Positions 12,087 through 24,932 are shown, numbered from the stretch's first letter. The stretch: 48,083 nt of DNA from Flavobacteriales bacterium (GCA_028122735.1 JAOHSR010000007.1:1-48083); one strand, 5' to 3'. Numbers and translations: made by a program. The notes: generated by a model not told the origin, from the letters alone.

Positions 12087-12598
12087 TGATTAATAATTTA
12101 AAAATAGGAGATAAGGTGAAATTTCTAAAATCTAATGATTTTGGAACTATTGTAAAAATAATTTCTGAACGTAAAATCCAAGTTGAAGATAGTTCACTTT
12201 TCTTATCTATTGTTAACGTTAAAGATCTTGTGAAGATCGATGATCACACAGATACTGTTCAGGCATATGGGGATGTAGTGTTTTCTAAAGAATCTAAAGA
12301 AAATACATCTGTTAAAATAATGTCTAGACAAAATTTAAATGAAGTAAAAATTGATTTGCATATTGAAAATCTTTCAAATGACTTTTTTGCTATGACCAAT
12401 TTTGAAATTGTTCAGGTGCAAATTAAAAAATGTGAAGATGCATTAATTGATGCAATAAATTCTAATGCGCAAAAATTAATTATTGTACATGGAATAGGAG
12501 AGGGAGTGCTTAAAAAAGAAGTACATAATATGCTTAAAATGTTTGAGCTACGATATTTTGTGTCAATAAATGGTGGTTCGACAGAAGTAATGCTTTAA
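12086..12598 (+). CDS. Smr-domain protein (MutS2 C-terminal-like)
   Basis: VKIDLHIENL...QVQIKKCEDALIDAINSNAQKLIIVHGIGEGVLKKEVHNMLK is an Smr domain. Confidence 0.88.
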   Translation: MINNLKIGDKVKFLKSNDFGTIVKIISERKIQVEDSSLFLSIVNVKDLVKIDDHTDTVQAYGDVVFSKESKENTSVKIMSRQNLNEVKIDLHIENLSNDFFAMTNFEIVQVQIKKCEDALIDAINSNAQKLIIVHGIGEGVLKKEVHNMLKMFELRYFVSINGGSTEVML

Positions 12599-14026
12599 CT
12601 ATTTTCTAGTTATTATTTCTGCAAATTGCTTATAGTTAATCCTCTTAGCAACTATTCTTTTCTTATCATCTAAAAGATATACAACTGGAGTTGAGTATAT
12701 ATCGTATTTATCTCTCCAATCACTGCTTGCTAATGGATTTCCTTCATCATCATGACTAATGTCAGCAACATTAATCCAATCTTCCGTTTTTTTGTCTTTA
12801 ATAAACTTTTTCCACTCTTCAACATCAAACTCTGTTGCTACAGCAAAAGTTTTAATATCATACTTTAAATTAATTAAAGAATCTAGTGCGTTTTTAATCT
12901 TAGGTATTTCTGTTTTGCAGTGTCCACAAGTAGGTCCATAAAAAACTAATAAAGTATAATCAGCTTCAATAGATTGAAGTGTATGGATTTTACCATTTAA
13001 GTCCTTCATAAAAGGTCTTCCATATACATCGATAAATTCTGGTGCAACTTTCCCAATAAGATTAGGTGAGATTTTCTCTGCTCTTTCTATAATTTTTTTT
13101 AATTGTTCTTCGTCTACCCACGGACACATCTTGGTTATATAATAATTTTCAACCATATTTACAAAAACTGCATCCATTCCCATAATTTTTGATCTTTCAT
13201 ATTTAGATGTAATGTGGGAAACTACATATCTAAATATTTCATCATTTTCCTTTGATTTTTCTACAAGAATATTTGCAGAAACAATCAGGGAATCAGGAAT
13301 TTTAGCGGTCATTTTATCCAAGTATTGCTCCATTTTAGAGAAAAATAATGGTGTTCTTAATATTCTAGAATCTGAAAAGTCAACATTATCCCAAAAGTGA
13401 TTTTTATAGTACATAAAAGGAAAGGTTTCATCAACTTTTCCTTCTTTATCTTTGGGAGATTCAGGTATTATTGGGTCAATAGTTGCCTTAATAATTTTAC
13501 TAAAGAATATATTTTTATTATTTGTAAGAAATTCCTCTCTATATTTCAAAACTTCATTGTCAATTTTTTCTTGTTCTTTTTGAAGTTCTTGATTTTCAGC
13601 TCCATTAGCAGTTTTTAATTTCTCTCTTATTGGGTTTATGTCTTTTTGTTTGGAATTTATAAAATTAAGGTATGAGTAAAAAGGGGTGTTTTCCTTTGAA
13701 TTTGTAAACTGCATATCACTCACAAGATTGTTTAATGAGGTTTTGAATTTAAATTTTTGTTCAGAAATAATTATATCAAACCATTTTTGTTCAGGAAGAA
13801 CAATTAAGTACATACCACCATCTAATTTTTCATCGCCCGTAAAAATAAATTTTCCGTTTTTTGATTCTGTAGTATCTTTAGCATATTGTTTTCCTCCAAA
13901 ATAATATGCTAAGATCACATCTGTGTTTTCAAGACCTACAACTTCTCCTTCAATTTTATAAGCCTGAGGAAAAAGATTGGAAAATAAAAAGAGGTTTAAA
14001 AAGATTAGAATTAGTATTTTTCTCAT
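12599..14026 (-). CDS. Secreted thioredoxin-fold protein with DUF4369/DUF5106-like regions
   Basis: N-terminal YKIEGEVVGLENTDVILAYYFGGKQYAKDTTESKNGKFIFTG; C-terminal LLVFYGPTCGHCKTEIPKIK (CGHC). Confidence 0.88.
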   Translation of the reverse strand: MRKILILIFLNLFLFSNLFPQAYKIEGEVVGLENTDVILAYYFGGKQYAKDTTESKNGKFIFTGDEKLDGGMYLIVLPEQKWFDIIISEQKFKFKTSLNNLVSDMQFTNSKENTPFYSYLNFINSKQKDINPIREKLKTANGAENQELQKEQEKIDNEVLKYREEFLTNNKNIFFSKIIKATIDPIIPESPKDKEGKVDETFPFMYYKNHFWDNVDFSDSRILRTPLFFSKMEQYLDKMTAKIPDSLIVSANILVEKSKENDEIFRYVVSHITSKYERSKIMGMDAVFVNMVENYYITKMCPWVDEEQLKKIIERAEKISPNLIGKVAPEFIDVYGRPFMKDLNGKIHTLQSIEADYTLLVFYGPTCGHCKTEIPKIKNALDSLINLKYDIKTFAVATEFDVEEWKKFIKDKKTEDWINVADISHDDEGNPLASSDWRDKYDIYSTPVVYLLDDKKRIVAKRINYKQFAEIITRK

Positions 14027-14041
14027 AAAATTAAATTTTTA

Positions 14042-14073
14042 CAAAATTAAGAATCAATTTTGATTCTTTCAAA
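14042..14073 (-). promoter_or_regulatory. Promoter of the thioredoxin-fold gene: TTTG-N20-TAATTTTG, minus strand
   Basis: CAAA at 14070-14073 (TTTG on minus) and CAAAATTA at 14042-14049 (TAATTTTG on minus); gene starts at 14026. Confidence 0.55.
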
Positions 14074-14965
14074 TCTGTTTCTTGTTTTTAATATACCCAT
14101 CCAAAAACACAATAAATAAGATTATTGTACTCCCAATATAAAACGATAAATTCATTTTTTCTGATTCACTAAAGATAATTAATCCAATTATTATACTGTA
14201 AATGGGCTCTAGGTTAATCGCCATTATTAAAGCATACGGTGTTATGTGTCTCATAATTTCTGTCATCCAAACAAAAATTCCTGCTGTACAAATTGTTCCT
14301 AATAGAAATAAGTAAATAAAATCATTTTGTGATAGTGGGGTTGTGAGTACGCTTAAATCTCCGATTGCTAAAAAATAGAGGCTTATAACTACAACTCCTC
14401 CAAACATTTCGACCATTGTTATTTTTGCTGCATCTAACTTATTAATGTATTTTCCATTAAACATTGTGAATAACGTACCTAAAAATGCACTAGCTATTCC
14501 ATAGATATAGCCTAGAACATAGTTGATTTCCTTATTTTCTGGTTTTTCATATAGCATGTAGGATAGGGCTATTAAAACAATAACTCCAAATAAAAGCTCA
14601 TATTTTAAAAGTTTTCTTTTAAAAAATAGAGGTTCCAAAAAAGCCGAAAATAAAGAAGCAGTTGCCATACAAATAACAGCAACAGAAATATTTGAAACTT
14701 TAATAGCACCAAAAAAGAAGAACCAATGAAAGGCAACAATTGCACCAATTCCCATTAGTGGTAAAATATCTTTTTTGGGTATTGATTGTATCTGCTTTTT
14801 TATTAAAAGAAAAATAAAAAGAGCAATGAATGCAATTAACATTCTATGCCATACAAGGTATGGTGTAGCAAGAGAGATTAGTTTACCAAGTACTCCTGTA
14901 AAACCTAAAAAAACAACCATTATATGTAATGATATTAATTTATTTTTTTTTAGGATTTGATACAT
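14069..14965 (-). CDS. DMT-superfamily (EamA) transporter
   Basis: About ten TM segments; two EamA-like halves (VWHRMLIAFIALFIFLLIKK; GAIVAFHWFFFFGAIKVSNISVAVI; ITPYALIMAINLEPIYSIIIGLIIFSESEK). Confidence 0.93.
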   Translation of the reverse strand: MYQILKKNKLISLHIMVVFLGFTGVLGKLISLATPYLVWHRMLIAFIALFIFLLIKKQIQSIPKKDILPLMGIGAIVAFHWFFFFGAIKVSNISVAVICMATASLFSAFLEPLFFKRKLLKYELLFGVIVLIALSYMLYEKPENKEINYVLGYIYGIASAFLGTLFTMFNGKYINKLDAAKITMVEMFGGVVVISLYFLAIGDLSVLTTPLSQNDFIYLFLLGTICTAGIFVWMTEIMRHITPYALIMAINLEPIYSIIIGLIIFSESEKMNLSFYIGSTIILFIVFLDGYIKNKKQI

Positions 14966-15785: not shown

Positions 15786-15816
15786 TTTGATATAGAAATG
15801 TCTTTTTATATATTTA
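15786..15816 (+). promoter_or_regulatory. Promoter of the 15832-24932 operon: TTTG-N19-TATATTTA
   Basis: TTTG 15786-15789 and TATATTTA 15809-15816 with exact N19 spacing, 15 bp before the ATG. Confidence 0.65.
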
Positions 15817-15831
15817 CAGAAAATCTCCCTA

Positions 15832-16779
15832 ATGAAAAAGACTCTAGTTTTAATTTTTTTAATTTTTTGTTTTTCAAATACAGTAAAATCTCAGTGTATT
15901 GATTCTACATTAATTAATCCATTGTGTTTTTGTCCAATGATTTACGCTCCAGTTTGTGCTTGTAATGGTTTGGTATATTCTAATGACTGTTTAGCACAAT
16001 GTGATGGTAATACAATAATTGGTCCAGTAGATCCAACGCTCGTTCCTGGTCAACCATGTTCTTTATCTGCATGTGATGTAAATATTGTTGGAGATTCTAT
16101 TCCATGTAATTATCCTGTAATTTTAGAAGCATTTTCTGCTAGCTTGGCAAGTCCTTTTATTTATTCATGGTGGGATGATTCTGGAACTATTCTGTCAACT
16201 GTAAACTTATTCACTGTTGCTGCGCCTGGTATGTATTACGTTTCTGTTACAGATGCAAATGGTTGTACAGACACAACTAGTGTCAATATGCAGAATATGT
16301 CAATGACTATTTACTCAATTCCAAATCCACCAAATATTTGCTTAGGTGATTCTATTTATTTAGTGCTTGACACTTCATATATTAATACGATTTGGTTAAA
16401 TTCTCCACAATCTTCAAATCCTGCTACTTTCTATCCATCACAAGATATTACTTATTTTGCTGAAGCTATTGATGCTAATGGATGTCAAAGAAAAGGAGAG
16501 ATATTTGTTGACGTTGACTCTTGTGAATCAAATATTGTTGATTTATCTAAAGTATTTAATATCTATCCAAATCCTACTAATGATTATTTAAATCTTCAAA
16601 ATAATACCAATCGTAATTATAGTTTTTATATCTATGATATCACTGGTAAACTTATAAAAGAGAAAAATAAACTTAAAAATTTACATATTGTTAATCTTGC
16701 CTACTTAAAATCAGGAATATACTTTTTAAATATTCACTCTGGAAATAATAATTTCTACAAAAAGATTATAGTTGAGTAG
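15832..16779 (+). CDS. Secreted protein with Kazal-like domain and T9SS type A sorting domain
   Basis: CPMIYAPVCACNGLVYSNDCLAQC (Kazal pattern); C-terminal VFNIYPNPTNDYLNL...YDITGKLIKE...LKSGIYFLNIHSGNNNFYKKIIVE (Por secretion tail). Confidence 0.88.
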   Translation: MKKTLVLIFLIFCFSNTVKSQCIDSTLINPLCFCPMIYAPVCACNGLVYSNDCLAQCDGNTIIGPVDPTLVPGQPCSLSACDVNIVGDSIPCNYPVILEAFSASLASPFIYSWWDDSGTILSTVNLFTVAAPGMYYVSVTDANGCTDTTSVNMQNMSMTIYSIPNPPNICLGDSIYLVLDTSYINTIWLNSPQSSNPATFYPSQDITYFAEAIDANGCQRKGEIFVDVDSCESNIVDLSKVFNIYPNPTNDYLNLQNNTNRNYSFYIYDITGKLIKEKNKLKNLHIVNLAYLKSGIYFLNIHSGNNNFYKKIIVE

Positions 16780-17680
16780 GAGTGTATTATATATTTTTTT
16801 TATAGTAATTACTATAATTTCTTGCAAAAAAGATGTTGTTATAATTCCGAACAATAATGCTCCTATTTATAGCGAGATACCCACTATTTTGTTGGAAAAT
16901 TATGTTAATCGACTATATATTGATTTAATTGGGAGAGAACCACTAGACGATGAAATGAGTTCTGATGTACAGTTTCTTAGAAATAATGATGTTACTTTAG
17001 AATCTAGAGACTCCTTAATTTATAAGTTGCAATTTGATACTATTTTTGTTCCTGGAGATTCTTCATACAAGCAGGCGTATTTTCATAGGTTGTATGAGAT
17101 GGTTAAAGTTAGATTAATAGAGGGAGTTTCTGATGGTTATATTCAGAACGAAATGGGAATTCTTTATTTTTTTTATGAAGTTGATTCAATTGCTGGAAAT
17201 TTAATTCAGGCTCATAACAACCTTATTAAATACTATAGGTTAAAAGATGTAATTAACTCTAAATCAAAACTTTATAATGGATCATTGGATATTAAAGAAA
17301 TGCATAGAAGGATGGTTAATAGTTCTATTTATGATAATATAAATATGAATACTTTCAATTTTGTAAATGCAGCCTTTGATAATTTATTATTTCGCTATCC
17401 TTCTGAATATGAATTTAATAATTCGTATTCAATGATTGAAGATAAAGAACCTTATACTGTTTTGGGTTATTCCGGAACAAATAAAGAAGATTTTATAAAT
17501 ATTATATGTAATTCTCGTGAATTTTACGAAGGAATAATACATTGGACCTATTTAACTCTATTGGCTAGAGTGCCAACAACAATAGAAACAGATTTTTTAA
17601 TGAATGATTTTTATATCTCTTGTGATTTTCATAAATTACAACGTTATGTAATGCAAACAGATGAATATGCACATTTTTAG
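16772..17680 (+). CDS. Putative lipoprotein with DUF4214/DUF1549-like helical modules
   Basis: TTG start overlapping the upstream gene; IISCKKD lipobox-like; NRLYIDLIGREPLDDEM and WTYLTLLARVPTTIETDFLM. Confidence 0.7.
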   Translation: MSRSVLYIFFIVITIISCKKDVVIIPNNNAPIYSEIPTILLENYVNRLYIDLIGREPLDDEMSSDVQFLRNNDVTLESRDSLIYKLQFDTIFVPGDSSYKQAYFHRLYEMVKVRLIEGVSDGYIQNEMGILYFFYEVDSIAGNLIQAHNNLIKYYRLKDVINSKSKLYNGSLDIKEMHRRMVNSSIYDNINMNTFNFVNAAFDNLLFRYPSEYEFNNSYSMIEDKEPYTVLGYSGTNKEDFINIICNSREFYEGIIHWTYLTLLARVPTTIETDFLMNDFYISCDFHKLQRYVMQTDEYAHF

Positions 17681-18158
17681 AAAATATATATTATTTATTT
17701 TAATTTTTTCCTTTTGCTTTTCTGCTTGTAAAGAAGAAGATTTAGTTTATGACATTAATCAATTACAATCAAGTTCTTATAATGCAAATAAGAACAAATT
17801 AAAATCTATTAGTCAATATATTTCTATAGTTTATGCAAATCTTTTTCAACAAGCTTTATCTTCAAATGAATTAGTTGAGATTACTAGATGTATTGAATCA
17901 ATTGGAGATAAAGAAGTAGCTCACGAAATTGTTTTAAGTAATTTTATGAATAGTGATGATGTTATTTTGCCTTCAGATTCTCTTATGCGTGCTGATTTAG
18001 ATATTTTTCTGGAAGATACCTACAAACGTTTTTATGTTAGAGATATAACAGAAGCTGAACGAGAATTTTTTCTAAACTTTTTAAATTCTAATCCAAATGT
18101 TAGCGCAGAAATGGTTTACATGTCTTTTGCTTTATCTAATGAATATCAATTCTATTAA
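17661..18158 (+). CDS. Putative lipoprotein related to the upstream gene
   Basis: FSACKEED lipobox; TYKRFYVRDITEAEREFFLNFLNSNPNVSAEMVYMSFALSNEYQFY resembles the C-terminus of the preceding protein. Confidence 0.72.
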   Translation: MNMHIFRKYILFILIFSFCFSACKEEDLVYDINQLQSSSYNANKNKLKSISQYISIVYANLFQQALSSNELVEITRCIESIGDKEVAHEIVLSNFMNSDDVILPSDSLMRADLDIFLEDTYKRFYVRDITEAEREFFLNFLNSNPNVSAEMVYMSFALSNEYQFY

Positions 18159-18161
18159 ATC

Positions 18162-19496
18162 ATGAAAAGAAGATCGTTTATAAAAAAGTCATCGCTTGCC
18201 TCTACAGCTGCAATATCAATACCATTTATTCTCCCATCAGGAAGATTATTTGCTGCCTCTGGAGTGAGAATGGCCGATCATGTTGTATTAGTTGCTTTTG
18301 CCGGAGGGGTGAGACAACAAGAATCTATTCTTCAAAGATATTTAGACGATAGTCAATCCTACCCAAGTGCTGGTAATATTTTATATAATCTTTTTGACGG
18401 TTCTGCTCCAACCGATAAAATTGTTTATGGAACTAATAATATAATTAATGGGGATACTCCAATTCCTAAAATTCTTTCTCAAACTCTTCAAAATCAAGGA
18501 ACCACATTTAGGGAAGTAAATGCTTCTGCAGTTGGTCATTATGCTGGTGTTAATGCAATGTTAACAGGTAATTACATGTACACTCAAGGTTTAAGAAATA
18601 AACCTACCATGCCTACTATTTTTGAATATTTAAGACGTCATCAGGGTGAAAAAGCTACTAAGACTTGGTTTGTAGGTAATGGAATTGGAAATTCTATACC
18701 TCTGTTGGATTACAGTACTCATGCAGAATATGGAGCGTCCTATGGTGCAAATTTTTTAGCTCCAACTATTACATTTGGATCTGATGGCGAAAAGCATCTT
18801 AAAAATGCGAAAGTTTATCATCCTGAGGATGAATTAGATCCCATGTATAAAATGAAGTATTTTTTAGATAATGTATGGTATTCTCAAGGCAAGGCATTAC
18901 CAAATATTGGTAATACTGAAGAGGAAAAAGCAGAAATTAAACAATTTGTTAAAGATATGTTTGATAAAACACAAGCCGGAACAATTGCTCATCCTCCTGT
19001 CTCAGATAACGGTGATTTAAGTACTATTGGTTATGCCTGTGAGGTTATGCAAAGATTTAAACCAACTTTAACAGTAATTTATTTATCAAACGTAGATGGG
19101 TGTCATAGTAATTTTACTAGCTATTTGGGTAGCTTACACAGAGCAGACCATGGGGTAGGGCATATTTGGGATTATATTCAAAATAATATTCCTCAAATGG
19201 CTAATAATACAACTATGATGGTTATTCCAGAACATGGAAGAAATTTAGTCTCAAATAACATTGAAGATGGAAATGCATTTTCAGGATACGATCATTCTGA
19301 TGCTAATAGTAGGCGAATATTTTCCTCTATTGTTGGTCCTGGAATTGATGGTAATTTATCTATTGGAAATGAAAATAACCAGGTTGGAGATATTGTTAAT
19401 TTAACACCTACAATAGCTGAAATTCTTGGCTGTAAAGATGATGTTGTTAATTCTGGTTTAGTTGCTTCGAGTAAATCTCTTTTTGATTTAATATGA
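18162..19496 (+). CDS. Tat-signal DUF1501/alkaline-phosphatase-superfamily-like protein
   Basis: N-terminal MKRRSFIKKSSLASTAA twin-arginine signal; VIYLSNVDGCHSNFTSYLGSLHRADHGVGHIWDYIQ, MMVIPEHGRN, GYDHSDANSRRIFSSIVGPG, NLTPTIAEILG. Confidence 0.75.
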   Translation: MKRRSFIKKSSLASTAAISIPFILPSGRLFAASGVRMADHVVLVAFAGGVRQQESILQRYLDDSQSYPSAGNILYNLFDGSAPTDKIVYGTNNIINGDTPIPKILSQTLQNQGTTFREVNASAVGHYAGVNAMLTGNYMYTQGLRNKPTMPTIFEYLRRHQGEKATKTWFVGNGIGNSIPLLDYSTHAEYGASYGANFLAPTITFGSDGEKHLKNAKVYHPEDELDPMYKMKYFLDNVWYSQGKALPNIGNTEEEKAEIKQFVKDMFDKTQAGTIAHPPVSDNGDLSTIGYACEVMQRFKPTLTVIYLSNVDGCHSNFTSYLGSLHRADHGVGHIWDYIQNNIPQMANNTTMMVIPEHGRNLVSNNIEDGNAFSGYDHSDANSRRIFSSIVGPGIDGNLSIGNENNQVGDIVNLTPTIAEILGCKDDVVNSGLVASSKSLFDLI

Positions 19497-19499
19497 TCT

Positions 19500-20423
19500 A
19501 TGAAACAAGTATTACCGATTCTACTATTAATATTTTTCTTTTCTTGTAAAGAAGAGATAAATCCTTTCGATTTTAATTCGAACATTATTTCAGATAATGA
19601 TACTTTATATTTTACAGATCCAATATCTTTTTCCGCTTTACATAATAATATATTTTCTCCAACTTGTGCTAATTCAGGATGCCATGATGGAACTTTTGAA
19701 CCTGATTTTAGAACTATTGAAAGTGCATATAACTCTCTAGTTTATCATCCAGTTATTAAAAATGACTTAAATAACTCATTTTCTTATCGAGTAGATCCTG
19801 GGAATTCATTACAATCAGTATTGTATCATAGACTTATTGTTGATATTGATGGAATTTCTGGAATTATGCCGCTTGAATCTGAAGACGATTGGGAAAATAA
19901 CAAAGACACTTATATTAGTAATATTAAGGACTGGATTGATGATGGAGCAAAAGATATGTTTGGTAATACTCCAGTTTTGTCTAATGATATTCCTTTAGCT
20001 AGAGGAATGGTTGTCTTTAACTCTGGACAAACATCAAATCCAATTTCACCTGGTCCAAACGGTTCAGTATTAGTACCTAACAACCTTAGTTCTGTGGATT
20101 TATGGTTTAGTGTGGGTGATGATTTTTTAACTTCAAATCAACTCACTCATAATAAAATTAAATTTTCTACTAGTTTATTTAATTTTAATAGTCTCACTGC
20201 TTATGATTTAAATGTTTTGAATAATCCTATTTCTCAAATTGGTTTTTACTCAAATAATGAAGACTATTTTCACAAATATAATTTTGACTTATCATCTTTC
20301 AGTATAGGAGATGTTGTATATCTTAAAATATATGTTCAAGATAATGTTAATCCAATAACTGAAATCCCTAATAATGGCTCTCCATTTGTTTTAATAAAAC
20401 ATTTCTCTTTAACTATTATTTAA
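19500..20423 (+). CDS. Lipoprotein with cytochrome-c-like domain using CX4CH
   Basis: FFSCKEE lipobox; IFSPTCANSGCHDGTFEPDF, candidate distal Met GIMPLES, IKDWIDDGAKDMFG. Confidence 0.75.
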   Translation: MKQVLPILLLIFFFSCKEEINPFDFNSNIISDNDTLYFTDPISFSALHNNIFSPTCANSGCHDGTFEPDFRTIESAYNSLVYHPVIKNDLNNSFSYRVDPGNSLQSVLYHRLIVDIDGISGIMPLESEDDWENNKDTYISNIKDWIDDGAKDMFGNTPVLSNDIPLARGMVVFNSGQTSNPISPGPNGSVLVPNNLSSVDLWFSVGDDFLTSNQLTHNKIKFSTSLFNFNSLTAYDLNVLNNPISQIGFYSNNEDYFHKYNFDLSSFSIGDVVYLKIYVQDNVNPITEIPNNGSPFVLIKHFSLTII

Positions 20424-20424
20424 C

Positions 20425-20862
20425 ATGAGATCTATTTTTTATTTATTAATTTTTGTATCTGTATTTTTTTCTTCATGCTCTAAAGATGATGATCTAGTAA
20501 ATTTTAATTTAAGATTAATAGAAGTATTCCCATTAAACATAATAGAATTTCAAGAAAATATTTATGTTAGGTTATCCTATGAGCATCCTGAAGGATATCT
20601 AGGTTTTTCTGATCCTGATTATCTTTCTTTAGAAGTTAAGGATAGTAGGTTGTCACAGGCAGATTATTATCATGTAATACCTATTACTCCTCCAAATAAC
20701 AATTTATCAGTAACTGGAGAATTATTAGTTGAAATTGATTCGCCATTTCTTTTTGGAAATGGTAATACGGAATTAGTGAATTTTTCTATAAGAATTCAAG
20801 ACCAAAACCTTAGTTGGAGCAATACAATTACTACACCAAATATTAGTGTTAATAGAGAATGA
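20425..20862 (+). CDS. Small lipoprotein, unknown function
   Basis: 145 aa; VFFSSCSKDDD lipobox; in a tight operon. Confidence 0.75.
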   Translation: MRSIFYLLIFVSVFFSSCSKDDDLVNFNLRLIEVFPLNIIEFQENIYVRLSYEHPEGYLGFSDPDYLSLEVKDSRLSQADYYHVIPITPPNNNLSVTGELLVEIDSPFLFGNGNTELVNFSIRIQDQNLSWSNTITTPNISVNRE

Positions 20863-23800
20863 GAGTATTAATAATATTAATATTATCAATTTTCACAATT
20901 TCTAGTACAGCTCAATATAGTATGTCTAATCAAACCGTTTATGATTGTGAAGGAACATTAAGTGACAGTGAAGCTAATTCCCAACAAGCAGGTTGGTACG
21001 ATCATAACGAAAACTTCACATTTACTATTTGTCCCAATGGTGCTTCTTCAATTATTATTGATTTTAGTTTTTTTAACACTGAACCTATAAACGATTATCT
21101 ACTTATTTATGATGGTCCTAATACAGCATCCCCAATTTTAGCAGGTCCATTTTCTGGAGTGAATACTCCACCGCAAATTACATCTAGTGGATGTGTAACA
21201 ATTGTATTTGTTTCAGATTTAAATGTTGCTGCTGATGGGTTTAATTTAAGTTGGGAAACTATCATATCTGTTCCTGACCCTCCGCAATTAAGTTTAGCTA
21301 ATGCTCTAAATTGTAGTACTAATGTTATTGAGCTTATATTGGATAAAAATATTCATTGCGATTCAGTGTTCACAGCAAATATTTCTGTAACTGGTCAATT
21401 AAATCAAATCGTTAATGCTGTACCAATAGCTTGTTTAAATGACTCAACAAATATTATTCAATTAAACCTAACCCCTGGATTGAATGAAAGTGGTACATAT
21501 AATATTTTTTTTCAATCTTATTTTAAAGATGTTTGTGATAGTATATGGTCTTTGTCTTCATCTTTAAGTTTTGATATTTTAGATTGTCCTTTAATTGTTG
21601 ATATCGTTGCTGATGATGATACAATTTGCTTGGGAGATTGTACAGATTTAAATGTGATAGTAAGTGGGGGTGATGCTTCATCATATAATTATTCTTGGAT
21701 TCCAATCTTACCAAATAATTCTGGTCCTCATCAGGTTTGTCCAACTACTACTACTCAGTATATTGTTTCAGTTAGTGATCTTGGACCTGCTAATACCCAA
21801 TCTGATACCGTAATGGTAGTTGTAGTTCCTCCAACAATAACCCAAGCAGATTTCTCCATATGTAATACAGATGGTTCAATATCATTAATTGCTTCACCAT
21901 TAGGAGGGTGGTGGTCTGGAAATAGTATTATAAATGGTTTAAATCCAATATTTGATCCTACAGTTTTATCTCCTGGAGTATATTCTTTAAATTATGATGT
22001 TAATGGTTGTAATGATAATTTAGAAATTACAGTACTTGAAATTAGTGCAGGTCCTGATATCTCTGCTTGTACTAATGCTCCAATTTTTAATTTAAATTCA
22101 TCATTAACTACAGCAGGAGGTAATTGGTCAGGAAATAATGTACAAGCTAATGGAGATATTGATGTAGGTCCTTTCAGTTCTGTTATAGAGGCTATTTATA
22201 CGCTTTCTAATGGATGTTCAGATACTTTATTAGTAAATGTAGTTAATAGCATTTCAATGCCAAATAATCTCTCCTTATGTCAAAATTCAAATGACACCAT
22301 TTTATTTGCCTCGCCATCTGGAGGGACTTGGTCTGCTATTGAAAACAATCCATTAATTCCAAGTTCATGTTTAAATTCAATTGATGATTTTCCATATGTT
22401 GAAAGTTTTGAATTAGGACTCTCAAATTGGACAAATGATATTTCAAATGATTTTGACTGGGTAGCAAATACAAACGGAACTCCTTCTAATAATACGGGGC
22501 CATCACAAGCTTATGATGGAAACTCATATATATATACTGAATCATCAAATGCTAATTTTCCTTTTAAAAATTCATCTATAATTTCTCCTTGTATAAATTT
22601 ATCCCAATATGATAATCCTATTTTAAATTTTTATTACCACAAATATGGTAATGGTAATGAAAACGCTTTATTGACACTTGATATTTCAATGGATAATGGA
22701 ATTACTTGGCAATTAGATAAATGGAGTATTATTGGAAATCTTGGTAATAACTGGTTTAATCAGTCCATTGATTTGTCTTCTTATAACTCTAGTGAATTAA
22801 AAATTAGATTCAGGGTTTTAACAGGAAATCATTGGTCTTCTGATATTGCAATTGATAAAGTTTCAATCTTAGGAGGAGCAATCTCCTCAAATGGTATTCT
22901 TCTAAGTAATGTAGCAAATTCCGGATTTCACACATACACCTATTCAATTGAAGGTTGTAGTAGTAATTTTACAGTGAGCTATCAGGAAATTAATGCTGGT
23001 AGTGATTTAGAAATTTGTCCTTCTCAAGCTCCATTTAATCTTATTGGAAATCCCTCTGGTGGAATCTGGAGTGGTATTAATATTATTAATAGTAATAATG
23101 GATTATATGACCCTGTAAACTTAGGAACAGATATTATTACATATGCTAATAATTCATGTGTTGATACAGTTTTAATAAATGTAATTGATACCGATATTTT
23201 TGATGATTCATTATTTCTTTGTCATAATTCTCCAAACCAATATTTAGATTTAGATGTTGTTTCAAGGGAGCCTACTAATGGGATTTGGACTGGTTTTGGA
23301 ATAACAGATCCTAATTTTCCTGGTATTTTTAATCCTAATATTTCTGGATCTGGCTCGCACATAATAAACTATACAGCTAATTCTTGCACAGACAATTTAA
23401 TAATACAAGTATATCCAAAACCAATATTATTTGATTCTATTATATGCTCAAATTCTACACCATTTGTTTTAAATATTAACTCTAGTGGAGGTATATGGGA
23501 TGGTGTTGGTATTATTGATAATACAATTGGTTTGATTGACCCCTCATTTATGACTTTAGGCGTTAATTATCTACAATATACTTCATTAAACGGCTGTGTA
23601 GATACTTTTGAGGTAAATGTTATTAATCCACCTATTGTTTCCTTTAATAGTTTAACAGTAGATTATTGTTATGTAGACTCTTGGTATCCAATTAATACTA
23701 GTCCAATTGGTGGTGTTTTATCTGGAAATGGAATTGTTAATTTTTCCTTTAATCCTTCAGTAGCAGGATCTGGATATCATAATATTTCTTTTACATACGG

Positions 23801-24932
23801 TTCTGGAAATTGTATTGCAACTATAGATACAGTATTTTTTGTAGCAGATGAGCTAGTTACTACAACATCTGTTTCTGATGATACAATTTGTGAAGGTGAA
23901 TTATTAACAATAAGTGCTTCATCTGTTGGAGGAACTAGTAATTATCAGTTTGATTGGAACAATAATTTAAGTAATAGTTTTTCTCATCTAATTTCTCCAA
24001 CTCAAACTACAGAATATATACTTAGTGTTTCTGATGGTTGTTCCGAAAGAACTGTTGATACTTTACAAATTTTTGTTTTTGATACATTTGATTTAAATTT
24101 TTCAACTTCAGAAAAAAAATGTTTTGGAGAAGTTGGCTATGCTAAAGTGTTTTCTAACTCCAGTAATGTACAGTATGAGTGGAATACAAACCCTATTTCT
24201 TATGGTGATAGTATAATTGGTACAGTTGATAGAAATTATATCGTAAAGGCAACAAATACTATAACAAATTGTATTGTTTATGATACCATTAGAATTCAAG
24301 GTTATAGTAATTTATCTTCAATTTTTTCTTTAAATGTTAATGATTGTGTATCTATTCTAGATGCTAATATTCAATTAATAGATCTTAGTATTGTTAATTA
24401 TAATGAAATTTCTTCTGATAGTTATTGGGATTTAGGTGATGGAACTAGAATTCCTTATGTATATTCCATTAATCCTACACATACATATTTAGATACAGGA
24501 CAGTTTCAACTCAGTTTGTATTTAATAAATGATGGGGGCTGTATTGATTCTTCTAGCCTTAGTGTTTGTGTGGTCTCAGATAATAAATTTTATATACCAA
24601 ATAGTTTTACTCCAGATAATGATAATTGTAATGATTTGTTTTTTATTAAAGCTCTAGGCTTGTTTTCAGATTTTAATATTAAAATTTTTGATAGATGGAC
24701 ATCAACTTTAGTATTTGAATCTAATGAAATTTTACTTACAAACGATATATTAGAAAATTCAAGTTGTGATAATAATACAATAGGTGATTACTATAAGTTG
24801 GGGAAATGGGATGGAAGAATATTAAATGGAATAAAAGCACCCTTAGGAGCATATGTATACGAAATAAGCTATAAAGAAAAAAAGGATTCAGAAATCAAAA
24901 AATTACTTGGATCAATTACCTTGGTTAGGTAA
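20859..24932 (+). CDS. Large secreted CUB-domain and repeat protein with T9SS type B (CHU_C/gliding-motility-associated) C-terminus
   Basis: N-terminal CUB-like domain (YDCEGTLSDSE...FTICPNGASSIIIDFSFFNTEPINDYLLIYDGPNTASPILAGPFSG); GGxWSG repeats; C-terminal FYIPNSFTPDNDNCNDLFFIKALG...WDGRILNGIKAPLGAYVYEISYKE. Confidence 0.92.
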   Translation: MRVLIILILSIFTISSTAQYSMSNQTVYDCEGTLSDSEANSQQAGWYDHNENFTFTICPNGASSIIIDFSFFNTEPINDYLLIYDGPNTASPILAGPFSGVNTPPQITSSGCVTIVFVSDLNVAADGFNLSWETIISVPDPPQLSLANALNCSTNVIELILDKNIHCDSVFTANISVTGQLNQIVNAVPIACLNDSTNIIQLNLTPGLNESGTYNIFFQSYFKDVCDSIWSLSSSLSFDILDCPLIVDIVADDDTICLGDCTDLNVIVSGGDASSYNYSWIPILPNNSGPHQVCPTTTTQYIVSVSDLGPANTQSDTVMVVVVPPTITQADFSICNTDGSISLIASPLGGWWSGNSIINGLNPIFDPTVLSPGVYSLNYDVNGCNDNLEITVLEISAGPDISACTNAPIFNLNSSLTTAGGNWSGNNVQANGDIDVGPFSSVIEAIYTLSNGCSDTLLVNVVNSISMPNNLSLCQNSNDTILFASPSGGTWSAIENNPLIPSSCLNSIDDFPYVESFELGLSNWTNDISNDFDWVANTNGTPSNNTGPSQAYDGNSYIYTESSNANFPFKNSSIISPCINLSQYDNPILNFYYHKYGNGNENALLTLDISMDNGITWQLDKWSIIGNLGNNWFNQSIDLSSYNSSELKIRFRVLTGNHWSSDIAIDKVSILGGAISSNGILLSNVANSGFHTYTYSIEGCSSNFTVSYQEINAGSDLEICPSQAPFNLIGNPSGGIWSGINIINSNNGLYDPVNLGTDIITYANNSCVDTVLINVIDTDIFDDSLFLCHNSPNQYLDLDVVSREPTNGIWTGFGITDPNFPGIFNPNISGSGSHIINYTANSCTDNLIIQVYPKPILFDSIICSNSTPFVLNINSSGGIWDGVGIIDNTIGLIDPSFMTLGVNYLQYTSLNGCVDTFEVNVINPPIVSFNSLTVDYCYVDSWYPINTSPIGGVLSGNGIVNFSFNPSVAGSGYHNISFTYGSGNCIATIDTVFFVADELVTTTSVSDDTICEGELLTISASSVGGTSNYQFDWNNNLSNSFSHLISPTQTTEYILSVSDGCSERTVDTLQIFVFDTFDLNFSTSEKKCFGEVGYAKVFSNSSNVQYEWNTNPISYGDSIIGTVDRNYIVKATNTITNCIVYDTIRIQGYSNLSSIFSLNVNDCVSILDANIQLIDLSIVNYNEISSDSYWDLGDGTRIPYVYSINPTHTYLDTGQFQLSLYLINDGGCIDSSSLSVCVVSDNKFYIPNSFTPDNDNCNDLFFIKALGLFSDFNIKIFDRWTSTLVFESNEILLTNDILENSSCDNNTIGDYYKLGKWDGRILNGIKAPLGAYVYEISYKEKKDSEIKKLLGSITLVR

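Follow-up and report, generated by a model that had tools for sequence, protein, structure and literature searches.

The cassette and its surroundings

A 48,083-nucleotide stretch of DNA from a Flavobacteriales bacterium (GCA_028122735.1, JAOHSR010000007.1:1-48083), referred to below as the window, carries seven head-to-tail open reading frames (ORFs), g1 to g7, all on the + strand. The genes g2 to g6, joined in one clade by g7, make up a tightly kept block of five or six genes for envelope proteins found in several mostly uncultured, largely aquatic Bacteroidota groups, and this cassette is the subject of our analysis. It opens with two lipoproteins, g2 (16772-17680), which consists of helical repeats resembling phycobilisome (PBS) linkers and DUF4214, and the short g3 (17661-18158), which has a DUF4214-like module in common with g2. 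Next come g4 (18162-19496), a protein of the alkaline phosphatase (AlkP) superfamily exported by twin-arginine translocation (Tat) with a putative DUF1501-type altered active site (G48, H126, D312, H315, E357 and H378); g5 (19500-20423), a lipoprotein with a predicted mono-haem c-type cytochrome domain (CX4CH ... MP ... WI..GA) and a C-terminal Ig-like beta sandwich; and g6 (20425-20862), a small lipoprotein that has no Pfam family, starts with CSKDDD, and carries a DGDGDLG motif in many homologues. The last gene, g7 (20859-24932), encodes a 1357-amino-acid surface protein of type IX secretion system (T9SS) type B with CUB, MAM, PKD and CHU_C domains and belongs to one kind of cassette only, called type I below.

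The ORFs are closely packed, with overlaps of 8 bp (g1/g2), 20 bp (g2/g3) and 4 bp (g6/g7) and gaps of 3 bp (g3/g4), 3 bp (g4/g5) and 1 bp (g5/g6). Upstream of g1 a YaaA-like gene ends 75 bp away, and beyond g7 lies a DUF4019 gene on the opposite strand, in convergent orientation. A preliminary description of the locus had proposed this arrangement and assigned export features to the products, namely a T9SS type A tail in g1, a type B tail in g7, a Tat motif in g4 and lipobox cysteines in g2, g3, g5 and g6, all of which we recovered. It had also proposed a promoter. The candidate Bacteroidota-type sequence TTTG-N19-TATATTT is present at 15786-15815 (+ strand), where its support is its position only; matches of this type number 24 in the window against 25.7 expected by chance from shuffled sequence, so the motif carries no weight alone and was discarded as evidence.

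Gene order and joint inheritance

A search with g4 of approximately 85,000 species genomes, sensitive to near relatives only, returned 43 loci, and every hit with a group named in its title belongs to Bacteroidota (Flavobacteriales, Saprospiraceae, Chitinophagaceae or Cryomorphaceae). The genomes that bear g4 are nearly all metagenome-assembled or single-cell genomes. Family hidden Markov models made from these loci were used to read gene order at 49 g4 loci, and the order and orientation g2-g3-g4-g5-g6 is kept in 48 of them as far as the contigs extend, despite protein identities as low as 28-37%. Conservation of order at 30-40% protein identity rules out a chance grouping. One locus that keeps the order, L083, has two additional genes inserted between g2 and g3 (12371-14805, G014:C57), which encode an inner-membrane Fe-S protein (weak Fer4_5 match, cysteines like those of NapH) and an outer-membrane barrel of the Alginate_exp type; the insert occurs in one genome only and would be consistent with electrons being routed to the cytochrome.

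Within 52 genomes of the window's family, full-length g4 is present in 27, with g5 adjacent in the same 27, and neither gene is present in 24, while G331 carries g5 alone, cut by a contig end. Across the phylum, 297 genomes contained full-length g4 only in the window's genome and in G073, a complete genome of 3.7 Mb. This sample is rich in near-complete genomes, yet g4 is rare in it, which suggests that the cassette belongs mainly to uncultured lineages.

Comparison of related genomes shows which genes travel together. In G015, as in the window, the cassette has yaaA on one side and the DUF4019/zinc-peptidase genes on the other, whereas in G352, a genome of the same genus, these flanks directly adjoin and the cassette is absent. 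At the empty site in G351 (locus L142) a g1-like gene alone remains between the same flanks. Since these flanks lack g2 to g7 and G351 keeps the g1-like gene, g2 to g7 have been gained or lost together and g1 separately. The gene g1 (15832-16779), which encodes a T9SS type A secreted protein, is absent or divergent beyond near relatives and is a neighbour outside the conserved unit. The seven-gene set of the preliminary description thus reduces to a linked core of g2 to g6, and a unit that includes g1 was discarded.

The g4 tree separates two sets, each with full support (100/100): type I has 35 rows and type II has 13. In type I, g7 lies downstream wherever the contig extends far enough, locus L025 excepted, and in the 13 type II rows it is never part of the cassette. 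Three genomes of the window's family hold type II copies. At L078, L080, L081 and L040 the type II cassettes have common flanks, with phosphoglycerate mutase (iPGM) and an M20 peptidase upstream and a DUF255 thioredoxin-like protein on the downstream side; the assignments come from Pfam in L078, from sequence in L040 and from length only in L080 and L081.

The mixed export routes and ordinary-looking domains might suggest unrelated envelope genes that merely share a transcript, but the conservation of gene order at 48 of 49 loci and the joint gain and loss make this explanation exceedingly improbable. Co-transcription by chance is refuted for g2 to g6, and for g7 in type I; it still holds for g1. 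We conclude that g2 to g7 are almost certainly one functional unit. The linkage thereby withstood the comparison of gene neighbourhoods across Bacteroidota that had been proposed as its check.

A Tat-exported protein with an altered active site

The Tat motif of g4, MKRR-x-F-x-K, is invariant in 42 sequences. Tat export suits proteins that fold around a cofactor in the cytoplasm, and the export of g4 by this route fits a cofactor-bearing protein and supports the reading of a metal site given below.

By hhalign, g4 matches 14 ordinary Bacteroidota AlkP-superfamily relatives over its full length (99.5%) and DUF1501 at 97%, below the score of the ordinary relatives, over residues 308-429; DUF1501 and the ordinary relatives match each other at 65%. 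Weak g4-profile matches in about 50 further genomes proved, where they were read, to be such ordinary AlkP proteins with an intact DHGR, and these served as a control set. No g4 match to DUF1501 (PF07394) above the Pfam gathering score was found in G000 and none among 23 g4 homologues at E 0.01, and a PDB sequence search with g4 returned no match.

Active-site positions were compared across 42 g4, 42 DUF1501 and 14 ordinary AlkP sequences that were aligned jointly. The first metal-binding Asp is Gly in 42/42 g4 and 42/42 DUF1501 sequences, and His takes the place of the Ser/Thr nucleophile in 42/42 and 41/42, respectively. In the DH pair, Asp is replaced by Glu or retained, and at the His position g4 has H/C/Q/I and DUF1501 has Phe. 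At the other metal site, Asp and the last His are retained in all sequences but for one gap. Nine residues separate the nucleophile position from the next TG/SG, where counted in each of the three groups. H126, D312, H315 and H378 are invariant in the 42 g4 homologues, down to 36% identity. Thus g4 has the altered AlkP site and E(F)GR motif that mark DUF1501, except that the Phe of EFGR is H/C/Q/I.

The same substitutions at aligned positions indicate a distinctive altered site common to both groups, and g4 very probably has the active-site alteration of DUF1501; the likeness may reflect either common descent or convergence. Of the DUF1501-like label in the preliminary description, the altered site holds, as a remote likeness below the Pfam cut-off. 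Its phosphatase-like label is borne out for the AlkP fold and not for the catalytic chemistry. A conventional envelope phosphatase, phosphodiesterase or sulfatase with the lipoproteins as accessory factors would agree with the Phosphodiest/Sulfatase Pfam matches of 23 bits and with the full-length similarity to ordinary AlkP proteins. However, g4 lacks the Ser/Thr nucleophile and the two complete metal sites of active AlkP enzymes, and the replacements by His and Gly occur in 42/42 homologues, with (E/D)(H/C/Q/I) in place of DH. We consider a conventional hydrolase very unlikely and have discarded g4 as an active phosphatase.

A cytochrome lipoprotein and three further lipoproteins

The haem motif CX4CH of g5 is conserved in every aligned sequence, within an invariant or almost invariant C-A-x-x-G-C-H-D-G-x-F-E-P-D-F-R, and is followed by Met-Pro and a WI..GA helix, so that g5 has both the haem-binding CXnCH and the distal Met of cytochromes c. 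The CX4CH lipoprotein of the preliminary description is thereby confirmed in motif and lipobox cysteine. Against the PSCyt1 portion of PSCyt1-PSCyt2-PSD1 proteins, hhalign gave 95.8% over the whole cytochrome domain, including WI..GA; CX4CH fell opposite CXXCH, and the Met-Pro motifs of the two sides opposite each other. Pairings without support in this set of comparisons scored 5-17%. g5 lies below the Pfam gathering score for PSCyt1 (PF07635), neither g5 nor g6 had a Pfam match, and a SO2930 cytochrome model gave weak matches in 5/20 g5 homologues. The AlphaFold model of g5 (predicted local distance difference test, pLDDT, 83.8) has an Ig-like C-terminal domain and is poor at the haem loop, as expected since haem is absent from the model. 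Foldseek returned mostly generic Ig-like folds, with carbohydrate-binding module (CBM)-like matches among them. Judged from these motifs, g5 in all likelihood binds haem c, and its likeness to PSCyt1 might be one common to cytochromes c in general and not specific to PSCyt1. Short open frames that weakly resemble the cytochrome half of g5, with no adjacent g4, occur at G014:C63:18604-19035 and G014:C26:254-640.

The preliminary description had called g2 and g3 DUF4214/PSD1-like and given them a common module. The module stands: hhalign pairs the two proteins at 94.4%, and DUF4214 matches at E<0.01 occur in 9/20 g2 and 11/20 g3 homologues, with the window's g2 below the cut-off. The PSD1 assignment does not, as g2 and g3 reach an unsupported 4.6% and 4.8% against PSD1/PSCyt2 (DUF1553/DUF1549) and the window's g2 matches PSD1 at 14.6 bits (cut-off 28.5). 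PSD1 and DUF1800 (17%) were both discarded as identities for g2. The AlphaFold model of g2 is all-helical (pLDDT 90.8), and its best Foldseek neighbours in the PDB are the PBS linker domains 2ky4, 3osj and 3pru (prob 1.00, but E 0.09-0.5; target TM 0.55-0.69 as the top single-domain matches). From fold and profiles, g2 and g3 look like PBS-linker/DUF4214 proteins and not like PSD1. With its CSKDDD start, g6 agrees with the signal for surface export, C-X-K-(D/E)2, described for Capnocytophaga lipoproteins (PMC5080379), which g2, g3 and g5 fit in part.

The tie to type IX secretion

In Pfam and NCBIfam searches, g1 has a T9SS type A tail (E 3.8e-16), Ig_7 and a sub-threshold Kazal-like segment, and g7 has CUB, MAM and PKD domains and a CHU_C/type B tail. 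The tail of g7 scores 37.9 bits for PF13585, above the cut-off of 27, and 32.7 bits for TIGR04131, just below the cut-off of 35, giving g7 the C-terminal signal of a type B substrate. SprA is encoded in the window's genome and in 43 of the 52 family genomes, among them each of the 15 that are near-complete. A PorP/SprF gene directly follows g7 in L031 and L082 by Pfam, and a protein similar to PorP/SprF follows it in L029, in agreement with the established pairing of type B substrates with PorP (PMC9143113). No PorP/SprF gene lies beside g7 in the window, and four lie elsewhere in the window's genome. The T9SS tie claimed for the gene set thus applies to g7 as a type B giant with CUB/MAM domains; it is specific to the type I clade and does not define the cassette.

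A proposed function and its alternatives

We infer that the products form one cell-surface complex. In the mechanism that we propose, g2 to g7 together would build an outer-membrane-associated protein complex in which g4 would hold a single non-hydrolytic metal site formed by H126, D312, H315, H378 and perhaps E357, and g5 would transfer electrons to or from that site. The linker-like repeats of g2 and g3, together with the small g6, would keep g4 and g5 joined at the outer membrane, and g7, the CUB/MAM protein, would grip a polymer or particle acted on by the redox centre. Type II cassettes, which lack g7, would perform the same chemistry without a dedicated adhesin. Redox chemistry by the complex is the reading that we favour, at a likelihood somewhat short of even.

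Several points weigh against it. g4 has neither a lipobox nor a T9SS tail and is hence expected to be periplasmic, whereas g7 is outside, and the mechanism is weakest in how it places g4 relative to g7. The lipoprotein surface export signal is convincing in g6 only. hhalign ties g4 to DUF1501 over the C-terminal third only, and the placement of H126 depends on the multiple alignment and on the equal spacing to the TG motif. At L025 (3-8133), the sole exception to the conserved gene order, g4 stands without its partners on a 9-kb contig downstream of two T9SS cargo genes, possibly through secondary loss, rearrangement or an assembly fault. Finally, no enzyme activity of any DUF1501 or PSCyt protein appears in the literature found, so the redox function draws on the haem and the residues only.

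The loss of the g4 nucleophile and half of its metal site, the dominance of linker-like repeats and Ig-like domains in the set, and the T9SS protein with CUB/MAM domains in type I would also suit a non-enzymatic envelope scaffold. g4 would then be a pseudoenzyme that provides a platform for binding or assembly, for instance for g7; the g5 haem would be structural or sensory, and the complex would serve adhesion or surface architecture. We regard this as a serious possibility, although the invariance of H126, D312, H315 and H378, with the same changes near-invariant in DUF1501, exceeds the requirements of a dead site, a haem accompanied by a conserved Met-Pro would be costly if purely structural, and type II cassettes persist without an adhesin.

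Glycan use, whether by binding or by an oxidative step on polysaccharides, overlaps the redox reading and has been suggested for the PSCyt genes of Verrucomicrobia, which have neighbouring sulfatases and carry CBMs (PMC5615132). These relatives, the chs-DUF1800-DUF1501 clusters (PMC5122149) and the CBM-like matches of g5 speak for it. Against it, a sample of flanking proteins, mostly housekeeping, contained no carbohydrate-active enzyme, SusCD or sulfatase. We consider a glycan role rather unlikely.

Under the redox reading, g4 and DUF1501 could be one AlkP-fold class that has exchanged hydrolysis for redox or other metal chemistry, with the adjacent cytochrome as electron partner and the Bacteroidota cassette as a surface-linked form acting on T9SS-gripped polymers; this wider generalisation is doubtful at present. 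DUF1501 and PSCyt/PSD are numerous, unexplained exported families, and the cassette splits the DUF1501/PSCyt problem into separate small proteins and points to H126, D312, H315, E357 and H378 as residues for mutation. Sister genomes offer a natural presence/absence contrast.

Comparison with known systems

No published description of this gene set was found in a search limited to open-licence papers, and titles and abstracts on CX4CH, DUF4214 and T9SS with cytochromes named no matching system. The cassette matched no PADLOC anti-phage model and was discarded as a defence system.

T9SS type B proteins paired with PorP/SprF (SprB-SprF, PG1035-PorP) have in common with g7 the type B tail and, at some loci, the following gene; the window's g7 differs in having no adjacent PorP/SprF and in its linkage to a cytochrome/DUF1501-like cassette. 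DUF4214 and the PBS linker domain (PF13946, PF00427) resemble g2 and g3 in fold and weak profile matches, whereas g2 and g3 are lipoproteins of non-photosynthetic bacteria, below the cut-offs in the window. DUF1800 and DUF1501 pairs likewise place a helical protein beside a DUF1501-type protein, but the pair has no cytochrome and g2 is not detectably DUF1800. At L048 (976-2697), a canonical Bacteroidota DUF1501 protein with a T9SS type A-like tail lies beside a DUF1800 fragment, which indicates that a DUF1501 protein can itself be T9SS cargo.

The closest parallel is the pairing of PSCyt1-PSCyt2(DUF1549)-PSD1(DUF1553) proteins with DUF1501 in Planctomycetes and several Bacteroidota, where PSCyt1-bearing and DUF1501 genes are also adjacent. 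For these relatives in the Planctomycetes-Verrucomicrobia-Chlamydiae group, the literature found gives no known function (PMC5615132) or only guesses (PMC5122149; PMC2754498), and Rhodopirellula baltica has 41 copies each of the PSD1 and DUF1549 domains (PMC2754498). In our sample, DUF1501 occurs in 91 of 198 Bacteroidota genomes, some with 7-9 copies; G092, G186, G210 and G218 each hold 7-9 canonical copies, many of which match strongly (>450 bits), and this expansion recalls the one in Planctomycetes. The likeness to these pairs noted in the preliminary description persists at the level of remote homology: a PSCyt1-like cytochrome lies adjacent to a Tat-type protein with the same altered site. 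The cassette differs in that its cytochrome is a separate lipoprotein with CX4CH in place of CXXCH and an Ig-like C-terminus, in that DUF4214/PBS-linker-like lipoproteins stand instead of PSCyt2/PSD1, and in its added g6 and T9SS type B tie, with its proteins below Pfam cut-offs. We conclude that the cassette is a Bacteroidota variant, apparently undescribed so far, of the DUF1501/PSCyt1 kind, which is functionally unsolved, and that in marine Flavobacteriales it connects this kind with type IX secretion.

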